Shown: piece after piece, positions 17,226-26,973 of the stretch | Layout: each line of letters starts with the position of its first letter | How positions within the stretch are numbered: position 1 is the stretch's first letter | Virus record (IMG/VR): IMGVR_UViG_3300027833_000184 | Coordinates: 1 to 27,260 of that record | Strand: one strand, 5' to 3' | Length of the DNA stretch: 27,260 bases | Source of the DNA: a virus | The notes under the pieces: model-generated | What the model was told of the DNA's origin: nothing | The model's database searches: none | Seen by the model: the letters and a program-made list of their open reading frames with translations, nothing else | Position numbers and translations under genes: made by a program

Positions 17226-19352
17226 TCAATCTCCTATTGGGGTTTTGTTTTTTTCTTGCTTCGCAGCCGTCTGCATAGCGGTAGCTGCTATGCGTGTTGC
17301 TGCATTAGTTTCTGATTGGTTGGTGCGGGTGGTGTTGGTGAGATCTGCCAACTCTCTACGCAGCTGCAGCTCTTGCATCTTCATCTCCATCTTCGTTTGC
17401 AGTTCTTGCAAGCGAATCTGAGGATCTACGTCAGCTATGTCTTGTACTTTGGCGATGTTCACTGCTGCTTCAGAAGAGATCTTCTTAACTTCAGCTTCCA
17501 GCTTCGCGATCTCGAGCTGTACTTGCTTCATCTGGACCTGCTGTTGCATAGCCGCTGCTTCTTGCTGCTCTGGCGATTTCTCAATGCCGGTCAGCATGCG
17601 AATACGCTTAGCTAGTTCGCCTTTCTTAGTGAGGTGGCTGTACTCAATGATTGCGTCGTCGGGAATAGCCACGCCGACCTGTCGCAGATTAAGTGCTTCG
17701 GCAAACTGAACTTCGTCAAAGCTATCGCGAGCGGGGGCAGTAGATATAACAACGTCGTATTCGCCGATGGTAAGATCATTAACGATCTGTCCTTCTGGCG
17801 TCATCTGGTTGACTACTATTTCTTCACGGGGCTTCATCGGATCAGATTCGTTGGTGATCTGAATAAGACGTTGCTCTGAGTAAAACGTTTGGATGAGGTT
17901 GAGGACTTTTTCTGCTAGGTACTGGCGGGCCTTCTTCAGATTATCTAGCGGCACCTGAATCATGATCGCGCCACGAGCGCTTTTTTCGCGCATTGCGATA
18001 CCAGACACTTCTGCAGAGTCCGACCCCAGCATAGAGTCGTTAACGCCTGATATAGCTTTGATATTGATCGCAGCTTTCTGGCCAATGCGATCCAGTCCCG
18101 TGGGGATGCTGTTGGGCTGAATCTTTGTCGGGGGGTTAGTGCCACGAGCGTACTCAAGTACGAGGCCAGTCTCAGCGCCATGCTCCTCGAGGTCGTCGGC
18201 GGTCATACCTACCAACGAGCCGCTCTCAACCATCCAGCCACTATTAGCTGTAGTATTAACTATGTGCAGCTCTTGAGATGCAATCTTGTTCAACTGCTCC
18301 TGTGGGCTGATCAAGTTACGGATAGCTCCGAAAGGGCGTCCTCTTCGGAAGTATGAGAAAAACGGAACGATCGTAAACTGATTGTATGGAGACCAGTCAT
18401 CGTGCAATACGACCTGATCACATGTCACAGTCCAGCGGACTTTCTTTTTGAGTTTTGTGATAACGCTCAGTCCGTACTGCTTAGCGAACTTCTTTACCTT
18501 TGACTCTTTCCAAGCGTCAGGTGCCTCGCGTTGGTCGCCAGTGTTGGGGTCTACAAAACAAGTGACCCGCGACATCTTCTTATGCTGACGTTCAACTACT
18601 CGTAAAGACTTGATGTTGCGGTAGTCATCGTCATCAACATTCGTAGCGCCAAACATGTCGTCTTCTGGTTCAACGTCTCCATAACGGTTCTCTTCATACT
18701 CGATAGAGTCCCGACCAAAACTGTTACCGTTCTCGGCAATAAACTGCAGCTCTTCAGCTTTCTTCTTACCGTAGTGCTCCTCGATGTCGTCGAGGGTCAT
18801 CCACTTTGTTTCGAACACTTCGTTCCAAGTCTTGGGGTCGTAGTCTTTTGCATCTGGATCGATGAGGATGTCCAACGGATCTTTGGCAGTTATCCGGATC
18901 TCACCTTCAACGTGATCGCTAAAGTCCATGCGAACATCGAAGTATCCACGGCCATCCATAATCAGACCGTCAGAGAAGACTTGTTGCTCGACCCAATCCA
19001 ACTTGTTGTTGTCGGATATTTGCATGTAAACCTTAGTTAGGGTCTCAGCTACAGCCTGATCGCCGCCTCTTCGCGGTTTGAACTGCACGTCCGCTCTACG
19101 TGTGGACTGCTCACCAAGAATCGTATTAATAGTAGGCAGTATCGTATTGATGGTAAGCGCGGGGCGACCTTCAGACTCAAGCATTGCCTCGTCTTCGTCG
19201 TCCCACTGATCACCTCGATAGAAGTCATCACACTTCTTGGCCATGTAGATATATTCGAGATGGCCGTGATCTCGTGCTCTTACGTATCTATCCCATTGGA
19301 AACTAGCAATCTGCTGCTCCTTCTCGGGGGTGAGTCTTGTTGTCTTTTTCAT
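17226..19352 (-). CDS. Portal protein (P22-like)
   Basis: 708 aa, close to the size of P22-type portals. Typical parts: an N-terminal helix region ending in CDDFYRGDQWDDEDE, the motif GRPALTINTILPTINTILGEQ shortened here, RRADVQFKPR, then GLIMDGRGYFDVRMDF and DPLDILIDPDAKDYD, a wing-and-stem pattern of the P22 portal family. From about residue 600 it becomes a Gln/Glu/Lys coiled coil (QMKQVQLEIAKLEAEVKKI), reminiscent of the extended P22 barrel. It forms the dodecameric DNA gateway that docks terminase and adaptors. It starts 2 bases after the TerL stop with a poor ribosome site, so translation is probably coupled to TerL. Confidence 0.92.
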   Translation of the reverse strand: MKKTTRLTPEKEQQIASFQWDRYVRARDHGHLEYIYMAKKCDDFYRGDQWDDEDEAMLESEGRPALTINTILPTINTILGEQSTRRADVQFKPRRGGDQAVAETLTKVYMQISDNNKLDWVEQQVFSDGLIMDGRGYFDVRMDFSDHVEGEIRITAKDPLDILIDPDAKDYDPKTWNEVFETKWMTLDDIEEHYGKKKAEELQFIAENGNSFGRDSIEYEENRYGDVEPEDDMFGATNVDDDDYRNIKSLRVVERQHKKMSRVTCFVDPNTGDQREAPDAWKESKVKKFAKQYGLSVITKLKKKVRWTVTCDQVVLHDDWSPYNQFTIVPFFSYFRRGRPFGAIRNLISPQEQLNKIASQELHIVNTTANSGWMVESGSLVGMTADDLEEHGAETGLVLEYARGTNPPTKIQPNSIPTGLDRIGQKAAINIKAISGVNDSMLGSDSAEVSGIAMREKSARGAIMIQVPLDNLKKARQYLAEKVLNLIQTFYSEQRLIQITNESDPMKPREEIVVNQMTPEGQIVNDLTIGEYDVVISTAPARDSFDEVQFAEALNLRQVGVAIPDDAIIEYSHLTKKGELAKRIRMLTGIEKSPEQQEAAAMQQQVQMKQVQLEIAKLEAEVKKISSEAAVNIAKVQDIADVDPQIRLQELQTKMEMKMQELQLRRELADLTNTTRTNQSETNAATRIAATAMQTAAKQEKNKTPIGD

Positions 19353-19354
19353 GG

Positions 19355-21007
19355 TTAAGCGCCCATAGCTGTTTTGCTTCGTACCTCTTTACCGAGGAAG
19401 GAGAGACGATCACGCCATGAGGCGACGTGAACAACGGGTGCTTGGTATGTGGCAAATTCAGTCATCATTAGACCTAACCACGCCAGTGCATCCACCTGAT
19501 CGTCATGTACGCCATTTGGAAAGCGTAGTAACTCTGCTACCAAAGGGCCCGTAAATTGTTCGTCTTTGGGCAACCAAACCATGCCCTGTTGCATTCGTCC
19601 CTGGATAGCTCGTGCTCGAGCCTCTTTGTCTCTGCGTCCTGTTTTGAGGTCCTTGAAATAGGCTTCATACAACCCGCGTTCGCGCACGCGTTTCTCGAGA
19701 AAAGGTCCGAGGGCCATCTCGATGTGTCCTTTTTCAATGCCAATTATTGATGGCTTCCACTCTTCGTAGAGGTCAAGTATCCGCTCAACTATTTCGAAGC
19801 CGTCGTACTTGCCGCGAACCACATCAACAACGAATAACTGGTCGTACTCATCGACACCCACCACCATGCCCACAGTGAAGTCGTTCCGATCCTTCTTACC
19901 GATCGCCAAGTCCCACGCCGCGTAGAAACGCATTTGGCTGTAGTCGACTTCGTCTCGGTCGTAGTACTGAATCATGTCTCTGGTGAAGTAATCACCGTCA
20001 TCTGACACAGGATTCTGTTGGTAGAGCGCTGACCAATCGCGGGGGCCAACTGCCTTTTCAATGCGTTCTAGTGCTGTTTCGTCGTAGCGTTCACGGTGAA
20101 GTGCCTCACCGGCCTTTCTAAATTGTTCGTCGACCTCTGCCCGTGCTGGGTAGTTAACGACCTCCCACTGTTCTCCATTATCTGCCGCTGCTTTAAGTAG
20201 TCGCCCCGCAAGATCGTCATCATGCCAACGAGTAAGAATAACCAGCACACCGCCACCAGGAGCGAGACGCGTATACGCCGTTGACGTATACCAGTCCCAA
20301 GACGAATCTCTGGCGTTTTGGGATTCTGCTTCATCTCGGTTCTTTACCGGATCGTCGATGACAAGGATATGAGCACCCTTACCAGTAATACCGCCACCAA
20401 CACCGGCAGCAACAAAACCCCCGCCATTAGTAGTAAGCCACGCTTCAGCAGACTGTGAATCTGGGTCGAGTCTGGTAGAGAAGGCAGTTTTATAGGTCGG
20501 TTCACGTAGGAGTTGACGTACTTTACGGCTGAACCCCATAGCGAGCGAGCCCGAGTAAGAGCAACTAATAAACTCATGTTGAGGATTTCGACCGAGGTGC
20601 CAAGCTGGGAACGCAACTGATGCCAGTGTGCTTTTACCGTGTCGAGGCGGCATAAAGAGCATAAGTCTTGGAGACTTTTTCTCAGATACGTCCTGAGAGA
20701 ATTGCTCCAGTCTTCGGCATATATCTTTATGGACCCAACCAGCTTGGTAATCTGGATTGAATCTTTCAACGAACGGAAGAAGCCTTTTTCTTGTGAGGAA
20801 ACGGAGGGCGAGTTCTGCTTTTGCTTTTTCTTCAAGAGATAACTCCTCTGCCTTGGACTCAGACTCGTCAGTAGTAGTTGGTTCTGGCAGCGCATCAACG
20901 TCGTCGGCCTTGCAGTAAACGCAGAGTCCGCTGGACTCAGAATAAAGAGTCTCTGGGTGTAATTTTTTACACCTAATACAGGTCCGCTTGGGGATGTCTA
21001 CTGTCAA
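19355..21007 (-). CDS. terL: Terminase large subunit with N-terminal zinc ribbon
   Basis: 550 aa. ATPase: Walker A PPRHGKST (120-127), Walker B ILVIDD (214-219), motif C LTRWH (258-262). RNase H-type nuclease: D366 in AAWDLAIG, E425 in IGIEKG, and the DD at 502-503 plus D506 in HDDQVDALAW. It drives ATP-dependent DNA translocation through the portal and cuts the concatemer. Odd feature: the N-terminus carries C10-x2-C13 and C29-x2-C32 (CIRCKK, CVYCKA), a zinc-ribbon pattern I do not expect in most TerL proteins; it resembles the knuckles in the nearby HNH nuclease. The start is TTG, overlapping the TerS stop (TTGA); no in-frame ATG lies early enough to keep the ribbon. Confidence 0.93.
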   Translation of the reverse strand: MTVDIPKRTCIRCKKLHPETLYSESSGLCVYCKADDVDALPEPTTTDESESKAEELSLEEKAKAELALRFLTRKRLLPFVERFNPDYQAGWVHKDICRRLEQFSQDVSEKKSPRLMLFMPPRHGKSTLASVAFPAWHLGRNPQHEFISCSYSGSLAMGFSRKVRQLLREPTYKTAFSTRLDPDSQSAEAWLTTNGGGFVAAGVGGGITGKGAHILVIDDPVKNRDEAESQNARDSSWDWYTSTAYTRLAPGGGVLVILTRWHDDDLAGRLLKAAADNGEQWEVVNYPARAEVDEQFRKAGEALHRERYDETALERIEKAVGPRDWSALYQQNPVSDDGDYFTRDMIQYYDRDEVDYSQMRFYAAWDLAIGKKDRNDFTVGMVVGVDEYDQLFVVDVVRGKYDGFEIVERILDLYEEWKPSIIGIEKGHIEMALGPFLEKRVRERGLYEAYFKDLKTGRRDKEARARAIQGRMQQGMVWLPKDEQFTGPLVAELLRFPNGVHDDQVDALAWLGLMMTEFATYQAPVVHVASWRDRLSFLGKEVRSKTAMGA

Positions 21008-21522
21008 GAGGCATCTGGCTCCAAGTAATTAGTTTGTTTGCCTGCAATCTCTAACAGCTCTTCATCGCTAAGCCTTTCGAGTTGCTTGGATGTAGCATTC
21101 ATATTTACGTTTACCTGCACAGCTGTATCTGGCTGAGACAATCCGTGCAGCTTAACGAGCGAATCTACCGTGTTCTTCATTTCGGTAGCTGTCGCCGACG
21201 CTTGGTACGCGTCCATATACATGAGATGAGCGTTTTGCCGCTCAAATTTCACTTCCTCCCGCATTTGTTCACGGAAGTACTGCAATGCTTGTTGCACCGC
21301 AGGTCTGATTGACGCTTCTCTGGCAGATTGTGCGCTCGCATAACCTGCGCCACGTCCTGCAGCGGCGATTGTCATGCCACTAGCAATTAATGTGACGAGC
21401 TTTTCCTGCTGCACCGTAAGATCATTCAGTGACAGCCCCATATAGGGCATGTGCGACTGAAAATCCGTATGCTCACTGACTAGGTCAGTGGATGGTTGCT
21501 CCTGGGGGTGCGCTTGATCCAT
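21004..21522 (-). CDS. Terminase small subunit-like DNA-recognition protein
   Basis: 172 aa from the ATG at 21522 (AAGAG upstream); a longer reading from 21567 is possible but overlaps the previous gene more and lacks a site. The N-terminus is disordered (DQAHPQEQPSTDLVSEHTDF). At about residues 28-70 is a helix-turn-helix-like part (LNDLTVQQEKLVTLIASGMTIAAAGRGAGYAS), as in small terminases that bind the packaging site. A central helical part (REQMREEVKFERQNAHLMYMDAY) and C-terminal helix (KQLERLSDEELLEIAGK) follow, suited to ring assembly. It directly precedes TerL and overlaps it. The role rests on position and HTH pattern. Confidence 0.75.
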   Translation of the reverse strand: MDQAHPQEQPSTDLVSEHTDFQSHMPYMGLSLNDLTVQQEKLVTLIASGMTIAAAGRGAGYASAQSAREASIRPAVQQALQYFREQMREEVKFERQNAHLMYMDAYQASATATEMKNTVDSLVKLHGLSQPDTAVQVNVNMNATSKQLERLSDEELLEIAGKQTNYLEPDAS

Positions 21523-21751
21523 AGAACTCTTGGTCGTCGTCAAAATAAACAAACGCAGGCGCGCCATCGAACTCTCTCGATGCCACGTCTGCGATCCATT
21601 CTTCGGCGTACTCCTCGGAGTGGCCTTTGGATATGATTATTGCGATGGCTTTGTCGTAGTTGTAGGCGAGTACTTCACGGCCATTTCGGACTGTGGAGCC
21701 TATGATTGCGGCGTCTAAGCCCTCAATAGCTACTACTTCAATGTCGCTCAT
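21485..21751 (-). CDS. Small conserved phage protein, unknown function
   Basis: 88 aa. The middle (REVLAYNYDKAIAIIISKG, then SEEYAEEWIADVASREFDG, then PAFVYFDDD) resembles a small acidic protein family in many phages whose pattern is Y.YDK...IL...G...EEA.E......G...P.F. I know no proven function for that family. It ends in a hydrophilic SSAPPGATIH tail that overlaps the start of the TerS gene. The ATG lies only 5 bases after a predicted -10 (21757-21762), so a transcript from that promoter would be nearly or fully leaderless; read-through from the HNH gene is the alternative. Confidence 0.7.
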   Translation of the reverse strand: MSDIEVVAIEGLDAAIIGSTVRNGREVLAYNYDKAIAIIISKGHSEEYAEEWIADVASREFDGAPAFVYFDDDQEFYGSSAPPGATIH

Positions 21752-21756
21752 CCTAC

Positions 21757-21785
21757 ATATTAGCCCTACTAATAATTAATCACAA
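21757..21785 (-). promoter_or_regulatory. Leftward promoter/operator (site E), possibly leaderless
   Basis: Leftward -35 TTGTGA (21785-21780), 17-base spacer, -10 TAATAT (21762-21757); palindrome TTATTAG-TAGGG-CTAATAT in the same register as site C. The 17-mer at 21757-21773 recurs exactly at 24358-24374. It overlaps the 3' end of the HNH gene and points at the 88-aa gene and the terminase genes. Confidence 0.6.
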
Positions 21786-22246
21786 GAAAAATCGTTAATA
21801 GTCTTAACCCACCAGTAAAACATGTCCTCGGAGAGGGTGTGTTTCATGATGTTAATTCGATAGCAGACAAGTTGGATGTTATTAATCGTATAACCTTTGT
21901 CTCCACAGATTCTGTCGATAGAGGCGTTGTACTCTTTCTTACCACTTCCATCGACGTGATGTGTAAGGTACACACCGGATATGGCGCATCTTCCGTTTTG
22001 CTTTTCCCATAGTGCAATAACATCTTCTGGCGAGATTTCGAATGTGACATGAGCGTCCCGCAATCCCCTCGTAACATTAGACTTGCTCTTGGAACATAAG
22101 TTACGCAGGAAACTTTCATAGGACGCTGATATCCCGCTAGCTGCCTTTTTGATTTTACATGCCGCGCATATAGTGCGTCCTTTGCCGAATTCCGACTCAT
22201 CCAGAGTCTGTTTACATGATGGGCACACTTTTGTGCTTAATGTCAT
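21776..22246 (-). CDS. HNH endonuclease with N-terminal zinc knuckles
   Basis: 156 aa from ATG 22246. Two CxxC knuckles open it (VCPSCKQ and ICAACKIKK). After a basic linker comes the HNH core: EKQNGRCAISGVYLTHH, then ASIDRICGDKGYTINNIQLVCYRINIMK, where the SIDRI...GY...N.QLVC pattern is typical of phage HNH nucleases. Such enzymes next to terminase genes are known to assist packaging cleavage or to home; position directly before TerS fits the former. A longer GTG start at 22264 would fall inside the promoter and is less likely. There is no clear ribosome site; the ATG is 8 bases from a predicted -10, so translation may be near-leaderless. Confidence 0.85.
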   Translation of the reverse strand: MTLSTKVCPSCKQTLDESEFGKGRTICAACKIKKAASGISASYESFLRNLCSKSKSNVTRGLRDAHVTFEISPEDVIALWEKQNGRCAISGVYLTHHVDGSGKKEYNASIDRICGDKGYTINNIQLVCYRINIMKHTLSEDMFYWWVKTINDFSCD

Positions 22247-22254
22247 GGTTGAGC

Positions 22255-22315
22255 ATATTAGCACAGCTAATTGTTTACAAAGAATTTTTTAGAAAATTTT
22301 TTTGAAAAAAGCATT
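22255..22315 (-). promoter_or_regulatory. Leftward promoter/operator (site F) with A/T tracts upstream
   Basis: The palindrome CAATTAG-CTGTG-CTAATAT (22271-22255 core ATTAG-CTGTG-CTAATAT) contains -10 TAATAT (22260-22255). The -35 at 17 bases (TCTTTG) is poor, but 22281-22315 consists of runs of A and T (AAAAAAATTTTC, TAAAAAATTC leftward) like an UP element or bent DNA. It would start the whole leftward terminase cluster. Confidence 0.55.
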
Positions 22316-22643
22316 CCAAATCGCTCACCCATTATCTTCGTATCCCCTCAGTCCGGCCACGGCTTTCCCGATTTCGGATTTTGGAACCTTGTTACATGTC
22401 CATTATTCGGAACCTTGTCTGCCAGTAACCCCTTTGCATCTGGCCACGGTCACATGTCCAATGCCCGCTGCCACTCGACAGGGGTCATAGGTCATCTGCC
22501 CATTAATATATAACGCGCGTCCGGTAACCTTTAACGAAGGGGTAGCTCGCATTAGCAATTTATATAATGGATCAACGGACATAGGTCATATGACATGGGT
22601 CAACGGCCACTCGCCAGAGGCTCGCGTCCCTTGCCCGACGGGG
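22316..22643. other. Gene-free left part of divergent control region
   Basis: No credible gene. It holds short repeats: GGAACCTTGT twice (22383-22392, 22409-22418), ACATGTCCA twice (22394-22402, 22452-22460), GGCCACGG twice (22355-22362, 22442-22449), ATAGGTCAT twice (22488-22496, 22581-22589) and the perfect palindrome GTCATATGAC (22585-22594). These may be protein-binding sites for replication or early regulation. Their function is unknown. Confidence 0.5.
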
Positions 22644-22940
22644 TGTGTGTCACGACTTACAGAACAGATTTTGGTGGCACACATTCTGGCACACATTATT
22701 CTCTATACATATCAATGACTTACATAAGTGTGTGTCATGTGTGTCATGTGTGTCACCTAATTCCTACTTACATTTTATTACATATACTAATATTGACTTT
22801 TAAAATACCAATAAGACTAATTTAGGTGGCACACATGGCACACATTTGCTCTAGCCCGTGTCGTTGCTGACTTTCTTACCTTTTCGTTGGTGGCACACAA
22901 GCGGCACACAAGCGGCACACATCTCATTTGGTGGCACACA
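22644..22940. repeat. Array of twelve 9-bp TGRCACACA units (iteron-like)
   Basis: Forward units TGGCACACA or CGGCACACA start at 22675, 22687, 22827, 22836, 22891, 22902, 22913 and 22932. Reverse units TGTGTGTCA start at 22644, 22729, 22738 and 22747. Two blocks are head-to-tail with a 9-bp period (22729-22755, three units; 22827-22844, two units); another block has an 11-bp period (22902, 22913). Four forward units extend to GGTGGCACACA. A strongly AT-rich stretch (22757-22826) lies between the reverse and forward blocks. Iterons flanking an AT-rich unwinding region would fit a replication origin; an array of operators is the alternative. Confidence 0.8.
22793..22821 (+). promoter_or_regulatory. 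Candidate rightward early promoter
   Basis: TTGACT (22793-22798), 17-base spacer, ACTAAT (22816-22821), set in AT-rich DNA. The next units of the repeat array begin 6 bases downstream, so a protein bound to the array could control it. It points at the early genes starting at 23075. Confidence 0.4.
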
Positions 22941-22952
22941 TTTCACTCCGTT

Positions 22953-22988
22953 GTTAACCAAAACCACGGACAAAGGTTAACTGTCCGT
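22953..22988. repeat. Nested inverted repeats before first early gene
   Basis: GTTAACC (22953-22959) and GGTTAAC (22975-22981) are inverted copies, and ACGGACA (22966-22972) pairs with TGTCCGT (22982-22988). The two pairings overlap, so it could be two operators or alternative folds. Confidence 0.5.
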
Positions 22989-22989
22989 T

Positions 22990-23074
22990 GATAACTGTTC
23001 GCATTCGCTCTCAGTTGTCTGTCTTTTCTTCGATATGGGGCAATTCTGTCCCATCAAACATCGGAGTATTTAAT
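22990..23074 (+). promoter_or_regulatory. Duplicated upstream element, copy 1
   Basis: It shares with 23614-23697 the ordered blocks ATAACTGT, CAGTTGTCTG, a T-rich run, GAT..GGG.AATTCTG, TCA, ACAT.GGAG, then the ATG 8 bases after GGAG. Arms AACTG and CAGTT are inverted in both. No standard sigma-70 pair with normal spacing is evident, so it may be a special promoter or a regulated leader. Confidence 0.55.
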
Positions 23075-23506
23075 ATGAAATGTCCAACCTGCAACTCGGA
23101 TATGTTGGGTGATGGAGTCACGTCACCCTTGCACTGCGAATTTATAGACGTTGATCCTTGGGTTGAGCCTGATGCAGATCCTGTCTTCTGCGATGCAGTT
23201 CCAACCCCTAAACCAGCTGGCTATAAAGTTGGTATTCGCGATCTGCTTAAAAAACAGTACGTCGACGACTACGGCTCATATCCAAACTCAATCATGCGCC
23301 TACTCGATTTCTACGAGAGGTACGACTTGCTGATGCTCAATTCTTGTGAGGTAGACCATGACGTTATGGGCAATGAAATAAAAGACCTGATCGAATCGGC
23401 CATGTACGACCACAACGTCGAGCGAGGTTGGAAGCGATCCCTAGCCAACTCATGGAAAGTCGCTTGGCAAACTTATGACTGCGACTGGAGGGTTGATCTG
23501 ATATGA
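23075..23506 (+). CDS. Early protein with N-terminal CxxC, unknown
   Basis: 143 aa from ATG 23075 (GGAG 8 bases upstream). C3 and C6 (MKCPTCNSD) with C21 and C39 could bind a metal, though the spacing is not a standard ribbon. A Pro/Asp-rich stretch follows, then helical parts (GIRDLLKKQYVDDYG; RLLDFYERYDLLMLN) and a C-terminus with Trp and Cys (RSLANSWKVAWQTYDCDW). The protein is acidic. I do not recognise it. It is the first gene of the rightward cluster, right after the repeat region, and its stop overlaps the next start (ATGA). Confidence 0.75.
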   Translation: MKCPTCNSDMLGDGVTSPLHCEFIDVDPWVEPDADPVFCDAVPTPKPAGYKVGIRDLLKKQYVDDYGSYPNSIMRLLDFYERYDLLMLNSCEVDHDVMGNEIKDLIESAMYDHNVERGWKRSLANSWKVAWQTYDCDWRVDLI

Positions 23507-23607
23507 CACACGATTTCGCTAAGGCACTCGTCATCATCACCGTTATGTGTATTGCGATCCCTGCATTACCCATAGCGACAATTCATCTACTGGAGTGGTT
23601 GCGGTAA
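23503..23607 (+). CDS. 34-aa single-pass membrane peptide
   Basis: MTHDFAKALVIITVMCIAIP is followed by ALPIATIHLLEWLR and a TAA. Almost the whole peptide is one hydrophobic helix (residues ~8-28). The start overlaps the preceding stop by 4 bases (ATGA), a strong sign of translational coupling and hence of a real gene. Small phage membrane peptides often alter host membrane proteins or exclude other phages; here that is speculation. Confidence 0.55.
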   Translation: MTHDFAKALVIITVMCIAIPALPIATIHLLEWLR

Positions 23608-23613
23608 GCCCGA

Positions 23614-23697
23614 ATAACTGTCCCCTGTCAGGGACAGTTGTCTGTTGTCTTTTTGATTAGGGTAATTCTGCCTTCATCTTACATTGGAGCAATGAAC
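23614..23697 (+). promoter_or_regulatory. Duplicated upstream element, copy 2, with perfect hairpin
   Basis: AACTGTCCC-CTGTCA-GGGACAGTT (23616-23639) is a perfect 9-bp hairpin, followed by GTCTGTTGTCTTTTTG, then the blocks shared with copy 1 down to GGAG and the ATG. The hairpin plus T-run could end the upstream transcript while the following part starts or controls the next. Confidence 0.55.
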
Positions 23698-23859
23698 ATG
23701 AATCGACGTGATTTTATGTTTATGGAATGGGCAAAGCGTCCATCCGTCAAATCACCTGTGCAACTAATGACCTACGAGGAACGTGTTGCACATTTCCACA
23801 AACTTCTCGGGTACAGCGACATACATCGCGCCCGAGATCTAGCAAGGGAGTACAGATAA
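23698..23859 (+). CDS. 53-aa early protein, unknown
   Basis: Start ATG 23698 is chosen over ATG 23692 because GGAG is then 8 bases upstream, exactly as in the first copy of the duplicated leader. Sequence MNRRDFMFMEWAKRPSVKS, then PVQLMTYEERVAHFHKLLGY and a basic end (SDIHRARDLAREYR). It is a basic, helical peptide without known motifs. The stop overlaps the next start (TAATG). Confidence 0.6.
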   Translation: MNRRDFMFMEWAKRPSVKSPVQLMTYEERVAHFHKLLGYSDIHRARDLAREYR

Positions 23860-24029
23860 TGATCGGCACTCTTTTATTTCTTGGCGGCATGGTTACTGGT
23901 TGGTTCTTATTCCAGCTTGGTATCACACGCGCCATCGAATTAAACATCGACGGCATTCGCGATCAACTGTATTGCGAACTGCAAGAACTCAACGCTCAAG
24001 ATCGGAGGGCACATGAAATTACTCAGTAA
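23859..24029 (+). CDS. 56-aa membrane-anchored protein
   Basis: It begins MIGTLLFLGGMVTGWFLFQL, a single N-terminal membrane helix (residues ~3-22), followed by a cytoplasmic-type helix (RAIELNIDGIRDQLYCELQEL) and a charged end. The start is fixed by the TAATG junction; longer in-frame readings would run across the previous gene. It overlaps the next gene by 17 bases. Function unknown. Confidence 0.6.
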   Translation: MIGTLLFLGGMVTGWFLFQLGITRAIELNIDGIRDQLYCELQELNAQDRRAHEITQ

Positions 24030-24261
24030 GGCGAAAGCCGCAGTCCAGTCTCAGCTGACCCCATCTCGCACTAAACAAGCGCGAGAGTTTTTCAGCAAGA
24101 CCGGCACCTACATCAAAGAGAATCCCGAACAAGCATTCCAAAACGCTTGCATCGGTATCGTGACGGTAGTGATTGCCGACACCTCGGGCGATGTAGAACT
24201 CATGGCAGATGCAACTAATGTGTCTGCTGCAATTGATGTTTGGGAATATAGCGGGAGTTAA
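24013..24261 (+). CDS. 82-aa early protein, unknown
   Basis: ATG 24013 with GGAGG upstream, inside the end of the previous gene. The N-terminus is basic (MKLLSKAKAAVQSQLTPSRT), a helix follows (ARE FFSKTG, ENPEQAFQNAC), then a hydrophobic segment (IGIVTVVIADTSGDVELMAD) and an acidic end. It has no recognised motif. It is part of the tightly packed early cluster and probably co-expressed with its neighbours. Confidence 0.7.
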   Translation: MKLLSKAKAAVQSQLTPSRTKQAREFFSKTGTYIKENPEQAFQNACIGIVTVVIADTSGDVELMADATNVSAAIDVWEYSGS

Positions 24262-24263
24262 TT

Positions 24264-24401
24264 ATGGACGGTGAATTAAATTTTAACGCAATGAATTGGT
24301 CAATCCTTGATCAGTTCGAAGAAGACCAAGCCGATTGGCACTCAAATGGGGCTGTAGATATTAGCCCTACTAATCTTTTTGAAATCGAAACTGGAGAATA
24401 A
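24264..24401 (+). CDS. 45-aa protein with no Lys or Arg, very acidic
   Basis: MDGELNFNAMNWSILDQF leads into EEDQADWHSNGAVDI and SPTNLFEIETGE. It has 11 Asp/Glu in 45 residues and no basic residue except one His. GGGAG lies upstream and the gene is 2 bases from both neighbours, supporting a real gene. Such composition is seen in proteins that mimic DNA charge or bind polymerase, but it is no proof. Its coding sequence contains an exact 17-base copy of the site-E palindrome. Confidence 0.6.
   Translation: MDGELNFNAMNWSILDQFEEDQADWHSNGAVDISPTNLFEIETGE
24358..24374. promoter_or_regulatory. Operator-like palindrome in coding sequence (site G)
   Basis: ATATTAGCCCTACTAAT is identical over 17 bases to 21757-21773. 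It encodes part of the 45-aa protein and lies 30 bases before the start of the 235-aa gene. No good -35 fits on either strand, so binding without promoter function is the likelier role. Confidence 0.35.
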
Positions 24402-24403
24402 AT

Positions 24404-25111
24404 ATGACTAAAGCTAAAACTCAGGCTACCCCAGTAGTAGCTATCGACCGCAACTCATTGATCGACGCAACTCTTACTCGCATGTCCGAGAAATCCAACA
24501 AGGATTCCTACATCGCTCGTAAGGCACAGGGCATCGATCACCCCTTTCCACTTGTCCGTCTCGGCAAGACATTCACTGCATTGCAGACCCACCGCGAAGT
24601 AGAGAACGCACGCGCCAAAGAGACTGGCGTACCTGCCGAGATCATCTGCAAGCCAGAGGCTATTGTCAGCTTCACTCAGAAGCTCGCCAACAACTGCATC
24701 TGGACTGCACTCGCGCTCAAAGAAAAGATGGACAACGCCGACGATTGGGACAACAACCTTGGCGGCGGCACTGGCACTGATTGTTACGCTGATGCTTGCG
24801 ACGAGTACGGCATCGACCCAATCATGCCAGAGCATCTGGAAGAACTGGTCTTGGCAGACTTTGCAGAGATCGAGAAGTTCTACTCAATGCTCAAGCGCAA
24901 GACGATGTACTTGCCATCACACGATGATCTGCACTTGTATCACGACAAGATGCCTGATCCTGACAGTGATAACCCTGAAGCACCTTGGGTTACCAAGCGC
25001 TCTGCCGCAACTCTCGACGAGGCGTTCGACATTCTTGCTCAGATCCGCGAAGAGATGAAGGCAAACAAAGCTGAAAAAGAGAACGCCGACTGGGAATCTT
25101 TGGCCGCTTAG
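24404..25111 (+). CDS. 235-aa early protein, unknown
   Basis: The largest gene of the rightward cluster. N-terminus MTKAKTQATPVVAIDRNSLI, helical part (EAIVSFTQKLANNCIWTALALKEKM), a Gly-rich turn (NNLGGGTGTDCYADACDEYG), an acidic-aromatic middle (LPSHDDLHLYHDKMPDPD) and an Ala/Glu/Lys helix at the end. GGAGAAT lies upstream. It is followed at 13 bases by a strong terminator and appears to use a restricted, C-ending codon set (GCA/GCC, ATC, AAG), suggesting high expression. I do not recognise the family. Confidence 0.8.
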   Translation: MTKAKTQATPVVAIDRNSLIDATLTRMSEKSNKDSYIARKAQGIDHPFPLVRLGKTFTALQTHREVENARAKETGVPAEIICKPEAIVSFTQKLANNCIWTALALKEKMDNADDWDNNLGGGTGTDCYADACDEYGIDPIMPEHLEELVLADFAEIEKFYSMLKRKTMYLPSHDDLHLYHDKMPDPDSDNPEAPWVTKRSAATLDEAFDILAQIREEMKANKAEKENADWESLAA

Positions 25112-26046: not shown

Positions 26047-26341
26047 CTACGATTTCCCGTTTGCAGAACTAAAAACGCCGACAGGTGACTACTACGACAA
26101 CCGCAGTGAAATGGAGCGTGCAGGATTCCAAGAATCTCAAATGTGGTCAGTTGTAGAAGCCGACGCTGACGATGGTTCCGAATACCTCGTCTACGGACCC
26201 GTCCACCACTACGTAAATCTACTAGGGTACATCTGCACCGCTGAGCATCACGACGGCGATACCTACTACTACGAATGTGTCAAGACTGCGGAAGAAGCGG
26301 CCGAACAAGCTGCCTACTTCTGCGACTCTTGCGACGACTAA
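26030..26341 (+). CDS. 103-aa strongly acidic early protein
   Basis: About 22 Asp/Glu against 5 Lys/Arg. Aromatic residues are also frequent (YNYDFPF, GDYYDN, DTYYYECV), and it ends FCDSCDD. The ribosome site AAGGAGG is the best in the right half, suggesting strong expression. Small, early and very acidic phage proteins include DNA mimics that block restriction enzymes (Ocr, ArdA types), but I see no sequence match to those; the comparison is by charge only. Confidence 0.7.
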   Translation: MSRTYNYDFPFAELKTPTGDYYDNRSEMERAGFQESQMWSVVEADADDGSEYLVYGPVHHYVNLLGYICTAEHHDGDTYYYECVKTAEEAAEQAAYFCDSCDD

Positions 26342-26504
26342 TTCAGGGTAGGGTCCATATTTTTCCCATACTTTTGGGATGCTCCGCCGCAGCGGTCACT
26401 GCGGTACTAAGTTCTGATGCTTGCTCCGCCGCTCCCCTAAATCAATGTGGTGGCGAAAGCACGTCAAAGATGGGGCCCGTAATGAACATACATCAAATCA
26501 GAAC
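26342..26504. other. Gene-free gap with GC-rich repeats before regulator gene
   Basis: It holds GCTCCGCCGC twice (26381-26390, 26423-26432), a hairpin CCGCAG-CGGTCA-CTGCGG (26387-26404) and TCCCA-TACTTT-TGGGA (26364-26379). No T-tract follows the hairpins, so they are not clear terminators. No credible gene is seen. Confidence 0.5.
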
Positions 26505-26533
26505 ATGACCACTGTTATTAGTTCCACTACTAT
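26505..26533 (+). promoter_or_regulatory. Rightward promoter/operator of the HTH gene (site H)
   Basis: -35 ATGACC (26505-26510), 17-base spacer, -10 TACTAT (26528-26533). The imperfect palindrome TTATTAG-TTCCA-CTACTAT sits in exactly the register seen at sites C and E. With the HTH gene starting 24 bases further on, autoregulation is the natural reading. Confidence 0.55.
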
Positions 26534-26556
26534 TCACCAACCAACAGGAGGCTGTT

Positions 26557-26973
26557 ATGCCCTCAACTAACTATCGCCAACATAAAGTTGGTAAAACATT
26601 TGAAAACGCAATTGCCCGAGCACCAATCACTCGTACAGAACTCGCAGACTTATTAGGTATCCACGCAACTTCACTAACTTATTGGTACAAGCGCGGCGTC
26701 ACCGCTGACTACGCTAACCAAGTTGCTGATCTGCTTGAGCTTGATGTCAAAACCATTCAAAGCAAGCAAATACGATCGCCACGCCGCACGTTTCTTCGCG
26801 CCGTACCTGAAGGCAAGAGCGAAATGATTGACGAAATAGTCAAAGAACTCGAAGAAGAATTACGGACCGTGAACATCGAGCTTCTGGCAATTATCGCAAA
26901 CATGCGTCTCTCAACGCAGCAGGAAGCGACGCTTCATTCACTCGCACTCACATTCTTGGGCGAAGAGTCGTGA
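26557..26973 (+). CDS. Cro/XRE-type helix-turn-helix regulator
   Basis: 138 aa. HTH at about residues 24-58 (ITRTELADLLGIHATSLTYW followed by YKRGVTADYANQVADLL): the pattern ..LADLLG...TSLTYW...GV...YA..VA.LL is the XRE/Cro fold, with the recognition helix around HATSLTYWYKR. The C-terminal half is helical and acidic (EMIDEIVKELEEELRTVNIEL) and probably mediates dimerisation; no S24 peptidase is present, so it is not a cleavable CI-type repressor. AGGAGG lies upstream of the ATG. A palindromic operator overlaps its predicted promoter. It is the only DNA-binding regulator seen in the window. It overlaps the next gene by 4 bases. Confidence 0.85.
   Translation: MPSTNYRQHKVGKTFENAIARAPITRTELADLLGIHATSLTYWYKRGVTADYANQVADLLELDVKTIQSKQIRSPRRTFLRAVPEGKSEMIDEIVKELEEELRTVNIELLAIIANMRLSTQQEATLHSLALTFLGEES

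Follow-up and report, generated by a model that had tools for sequence, protein, structure and literature searches.

In lambdoid phages the origin consists of iterons bound by the O protein followed by an AT-rich region, and both unit and initiator are type-specific between related phages. The origin of satellite phage P4 contains short iterons that are read by the C-terminal winged-helix domain of alpha, a primase-SF3 helicase. Work on the lambda origin (PMC4488673, PMC7466680) includes the finding that extra origin copies arrest lambda replication (PMC4488673). For the polymerase of Nitratiruptor phage NrS-1, the available portions of PMC7102993 and PMC8718748 report an 8-nt site, a priming recognition sequence present twice in the NrS-1 genome, and no iteron array was found described in them. 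In the PLE satellites, the three ~30-bp semi-palindromic RepA iterons diversify by restructuring or whole-module exchange, proposed to be an escape from an origin-directed nuclease, ICP1 Odn (PMC8263062). The stoperators of Cluster A mycobacteriophages are asymmetric short sites, dispersed genome-wide and read by a repressor; among related phages, sites and repressor diverge in parallel (PMC6550527, PMC9283540).

The locus described here lies in a 27,260-bp marine phage fragment from IMG/VR (the window, i.e. the whole stretch analysed). Like the lambdoid origins it has short, type-specific repeated units adjoining an AT-rich stretch; unlike them it comprises some 12 units, each of 9 bp, arranged as two opposed blocks, and is intergenic, whereas lambdoid iterons lie inside the initiator gene. 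Its candidate initiator is a primase-polymerase/SF3 helicase rather than an O-like loader, and many more unit types occur on one scaffold. The P4 origin, as generally described, is alike in its short iterons and the C-terminal winged helix of its primase-SF3 helicase initiator, but the present array is single, with no second crr region seen, and its unit varies among close relatives. NrS-1 polymerase (PMC7102993, PMC8718748) is alike in its homologous helicase region and in a C-terminal winged helix on which the predicted one superimposes. Diversification of replication-origin repeats is shared with PLE (PMC8263062), although here the 9-bp units are all rewritten in place between largely conserved spacers. 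In contrast to the stoperators, the array forms one compact cluster with an AT-rich core.

Twelve exact YGRCACACA units are present in the window, all within 22644-22940 and none in the remainder. The number expected by chance is 0.91, and 100 dinucleotide shuffles of the window gave at most four. The four reverse units, all TGACACACA, start at 22644, 22729, 22738 and 22747; the eight forward units, TGGCACACA or CGGCACACA and all of the form YGGCACACA, start at 22675, 22687, 22827, 22836, 22891, 22902, 22913 and 22932. The 12-unit array around an AT-rich core that was proposed in the original prediction is thus real, and the AT-rich stretch, put there at about 70 bases, measures 71 bp between 22755 and 22827. 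The predicted layout of reverse units on the left and forward units on the right holds except for forward units 22675 and 22687, both of which lie in the left block, so that the array is not simply reverse-left/forward-right. The predicted 9-bp and 11-bp steps are both present, with a 12-bp spacing in addition. The features of the array are as follows.

22644..22652, reverse strand: unit 1, TGACACACA
22675..22683, forward strand: unit 2, TGGCACACA
22687..22695, forward strand: unit 3, TGGCACACA
22729..22755, reverse strand: units 4-6, three head-to-tail TGACACACA in 9-bp steps; left border of the AT-rich core
22756..22826, no strand: AT-rich core, 71 bp, ~80% AT; presumed unwinding element
22827..22844, forward strand: units 7-8, head-to-tail TGGCACACA; right border of the core
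22891..22921, forward strand: units 9-11 in 11-bp steps, TGGCACACA, CGGCACACA and CGGCACACA
22932..22940, forward strand: unit 12, TGGCACACA

The units are CA-rich, as a chance or low-complexity repeat without function might be. The excess of 12 over 0.91 speaks against such an origin of the array, and a scaffold conserved across diverged genomes despite rewritten units (see below) already refutes it; its probability is practically nil.

The array separates two gene sets. The neighbouring genes used below are the following.

19355..21007, reverse strand: large terminase (TerL), anchor for relatives; PHROG terminase, 2.9e-122
21004..21567, reverse strand: small terminase-like gene (TerS by position; no Pfam hit), anchor for relatives
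21776..22264, reverse strand: endonuclease VII/HNH-like gene, left neighbour of the array; PHROG endonuclease VII, 1.6e-22
24404..25111, forward strand: C33-family early gene, right of the array, common to most relatives
26557..26973, forward strand: small XRE-type helix-turn-helix protein C59

The endonuclease VII-like, TerS, TerL and portal genes run leftward and the early genes, mostly of unknown function, rightward, which confirms the predicted position at a transcriptional divergence. GC skew, suggested as a check on an origin, does not change sign at the array within the window. TA skew has its maximum at the array in near-complete genomes, but divergent transcription alone can produce it; both skews were rejected as evidence of an origin. 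To the right of the array, at 22966-22988, an inverted repeat (ACGGACA..TGTCCGT) scored as leftward terminator-like and is kept in relative L202.

Relatives were gathered by TerL and TerS searches of IMG/VR, which returned many with TerL identities of 80-99% (the gene at 23075-23506, to the right of the array, retrieved none when used as query); their arrays were located by a search for clustered words. Absence of the array from close relatives had been named as grounds for rejecting an origin. It was found wherever a contig clearly covers the locus, mostly with another unit, at the same place ~2-3.7 kb upstream of TerL. About 35 relatives with differing units share one scaffold of reverse units, core, a forward doublet with a 9-bp step and more forward units, and most keep the 9-bp reverse doublet or triplet at the left border of the core. 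Their cores measure 68 +/- 11 bp with a mean AT content of 73.5%, compared with roughly 50% genome-wide; length and base composition are conserved among relatives, the sequence is not. Outside the array the unit word occurs in 0-1 copies (five near-complete genomes).

The array was not found in G024, G034, G035, G037 and G041. The G024 contig runs from just ahead of the C33-family gene to a point within TerL, so that exactly the array piece is missing, while in the other four no terminase-side gene was found and the locus is probably uncovered; in G036 and G038 it is likewise uncovered or unclear. Contigs with a primase-polymerase gene but without an array were probably cut before the locus, as is clear for G024. 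Many metagenome contigs (G013, G022, L203, G033 and G028) end inside the array or a few hundred bases away, possibly since the spacers, unlike the units, are common to different strains.

Among relatives covering the locus the unit differs from phage to phage and is nearly uniform inside each. The words include TGGCACACA, TGGTACACA, TGCTACACA, TGACACACA, CGACACACA, GGACACACA, CGTCACACA, TGGCACGAA, TGGCACAAA, TGGAACACA, CTGCACACA, TGTCTCACC, TGTCACACC and TTACACACA, among others. The closest comparison is with L202, which is 96.6% identical to the window in DNA across 17602-23078 and differs by three residues in TerL, one in TerS and two in the portal protein. In the L202 array every unit is TGTCTCAC, with positions and orientations as in the window; identity of the two arrays is 79% in the spacers and 61% in the units. 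L008 and L203 keep the word of the window, though slightly more distant by TerS. The complete rewriting in L202 means that units change in step, and origin and reader protein apparently switch specificity together. The gene at 23075-23506 is present in the window and absent from L202, and a ~90-bp similar stretch (22991-23079) recurs at its junction, suggesting gain or loss via recombination between repeats.

The change of all units beside near-identical TerS and TerL argues strongly against these proteins as the determinant, and they were rejected as binders even though their windows correlate with the unit. It likewise speaks against a pac/cos packaging site to which the small terminase would bind. 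An array ~1-2 kb upstream of the TerS/TerL genes, with several contigs ending inside or beside it, would suit such a site, but contig breaks are also expected where strains differ, and pac/cos sites need no AT-rich core between inverted unit blocks; packaging is extremely improbable. In L070, L072 and L076, short tandem-like TAAAGCTAA / AAGCCTAA repeats are located directly upstream of TerL.

In layout, the clustered asymmetric 9-bp units resemble DnaA boxes and also the repeats of centromeres, which could point to partition, copy control or binding of a host protein such as DnaA. Pfam and PHROG scans of selected genes revealed no ParA/ParB/ParR-like gene, and host DnaA specificity is conserved, yet the units differ between near-identical phages; function of this kind is very improbable.

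Other neighbours were considered as binders. The C33-family protein correlates with the unit but is absent from G012 and G011, both of which have an array, so it is not a required binder. The endonuclease VII-like gene was rejected since it also varies between phages of the same unit (L008). Its product shows 23 differences between window and L202, of which 20 fall in residues 15-72; this variable part is the Cys-rich, fast-evolving N-terminal half, and the flanking TerS and TerL are almost identical. In the G001 contig (TerL-minus orientation), five TGTCACA words on both strands occur at 58753-58995 and in a terminal copy at 1017-1259, beside an integrase and a tRNA-like stretch, and are perhaps integrase arm sites.

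In most of these phages there is an integrase and an excisionase-like gene along with XRE proteins, and the array stands at the divergence of two operons. An XRE-type repressor, C25 or C59, might thus silence divergent early and late promoters from an operator array, the variety of units reflecting immunity groups as with mycobacteriophage stoperators. C59 is strongly different between window and L202 (66% identity, against 96% for the preceding gene and 96-100% for nearby genes), and its recognition helix changes from HATSL to HQTSF. Despite these attractive changes C59 was rejected as the common binder, being missing from most array-bearing relatives, and related C59 helices pair with different units. 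The cultured Pseudomonas phage KPP25 keeps the array, and neither C25 nor C59 was found in the examined 72% of its genome. Confinement of the units to one array is unlike dispersed operators, and a conserved AT-rich core of fixed length is unneeded by operators. An operator array is therefore considered unlikely.

The original prediction knew of no initiator for these repeats. A good candidate was found, and it lies beyond the end of the fragment. Near-complete relatives encode an integrase, an excisionase-like protein, a family-A polymerase, an SNF2-type helicase, a PDDEXK exonuclease and, ~10 kb right of the array, an 830-residue NrS-1-like primase-polymerase/SF3 helicase. This gene lies past the end of the window contig and is cut by the end of the L202 contig. 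The protein matches DUF5906, PHROG DNA primases and NrS-1 primase, and its SF3 helicase region is homologous to the NrS-1 primase-polymerase (PDB 6k9c/6k9e, E 1.1e-26). The N-terminal part, where an NrS-1-like protein would have its archaeo-eukaryotic primase/polymerase domain, is overlapped solely by PHROG_3712 ('replication origin binding') and the full-length unknown family phrog_24712. The last 200 residues, modelled with AlphaFold from an alignment of 77 relatives, are predicted to include a winged helix (pLDDT ~90), whose best match is the C-terminal region of NrS-1 polymerase (Z 7.8, rmsd 3.4 over 97 residues), the next fold entry scoring Z 4.3. This match comes from a second aligner and whole-protein homology; with Foldseek alone the best hit of the C-terminal domain had E 0.09, which is not significant. 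Among the fold matches listed for this domain, the P4 origin-binding domain did not appear. The primase-polymerase/SF3 helicase is a well-supported candidate and the likely reader of the units. In G005 (TerL-minus orientation, 21888-24412) the gene is spread over three frames, an assembly error or a broken gene.

The primase-polymerase/SF3 gene accompanies the array in contigs with enough of the right arm, in two prophages and in KPP25. The prophages, both in large bacterial contigs, are found in Parendozoicomonas haliclonae, with nine copies of TCCTCTACC, and in Motiliproteus coralliicola, with 10 clustered copies of TGACACAA. KPP25 has an AT-rich stretch with eight copies of TGTTACGA around it, in an intergenic gap of 677 bp (26,218-26,895 of NC_024123). 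Its group possesses both array and primase-polymerase, the protein being only ~31% identical in KPP25. In the sequence examined from KPP25 (72% of the genome) and from the two prophages, no homologue of C25, C59, C33, the endonuclease or the integrase was found. Aeromonas phage phiA008 has the primase-polymerase, and its divergence point shows only a weak one-strand repeat (four ACGACTG). A separate run of 15 perfect tandem 9-bp units of the AGCCAGCCC type is found inside hypothetical ORF036 of KPP25 (record 29981-30123; L393 11982-12124).

Covariation of proteins with the unit was scanned by Mantel tests in 23 dereplicated genomes, controlled for the polymerase or the rest of the protein. The four of 159 primase-polymerase windows best correlated with the unit are all located in the wing (r 0.42, family-wise p 0.002-0.004). 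Windows of other proteins reached 0.40 (PDDEXK exonuclease), 0.42 (SNF2 helicase), 0.43 (TerS), 0.31 (C33) and, over 11 genomes, 0.71 (TerL); C25 was represented by seven genomes. Similar values in other proteins indicate that shared ancestry is not fully removed, so that the scan supports the primase-polymerase but does not single it out as reader. The wing is fast-evolving in general, with an identity deficit of ~23 points in different-unit pairs and ~17 in same-unit pairs, and it diverges even among phages with one unit, as in the CTGCACACA group; the units of G009 and G017 are similar, their C-termini just 36-38% identical. In the wing motif RKR, R is replaced by Q in all four genomes with unit TGCTACACA (G032, G005/G023, G022) and retained in 28 of 28 with other units. 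The Q genomes form three lineages on a tree of the rest of the primase-polymerase, and the association is post hoc, the G022 unit having been read after the pattern was noticed. G033, with unit TGCTACACC, has R; contigs with other QKR wings in the 77-sequence alignment end before the array.

Taken together, these data favour reading the array as an iteron-type phage replication origin, with a probability of about 0.7 judged from sequence and model. The predicted iteron origin with an unwinding element is thereby partly supported, by the conserved scaffold and AT-rich core, the confinement of the units and the accompanying primase-polymerase. Opposed blocks and an AT-rich core of fixed length are what an SF3-type initiator would need, to judge from known SF3 viral origins. 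In the mechanism proposed, the primase-polymerase/SF3 helicase would bind the 9-bp units through its C-terminal winged helix. Opposed units on either side of the core would allow two helicase rings to assemble head to head, a double-ring loading suggested by the anatomy of the array and by analogy with those origins. The core would then melt and replication start there, with one protein both priming and unwinding and the phage family-A polymerase extending in both directions. Units and reader would have to change together, which would make the array uniform within a phage and different between phages.

More tentatively, the origin may be a specificity locus under diversifying selection, a possibility given rather less than even odds. 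A fixed scaffold would carry more than 12 unit words, each matched by the wing of its own phage, and the array would be rewritten in place. Such selection would be driven by relatives with a common word interfering with one another, through origin decoys in prophages or satellites or through origin-directed nucleases, one of which the adjacent endonuclease VII-like protein might be. The arrest of lambda by extra origin copies and the escape of PLE from a nuclease would both favour rare words.

No published description of the array was found in a limited search of the open-access literature. As far as that search shows, the iteron-type origin is of a known kind, new for this phage group and unusual in its in-place specificity switch. 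Joint changes of specificity in a multi-site DNA target and the protein that reads it pose a long-standing question, for which this large and abundant group of marine phages supplies dozens of natural word changes on a common scaffold. Some of these separate phages with almost identical terminase genes, which makes the path traceable and testable. If the reading is true, it would provide an origin for this phage group with KPP25 as a culturable model, and would point to origin reading as a function of the winged helix in NrS-1-type polymerases.
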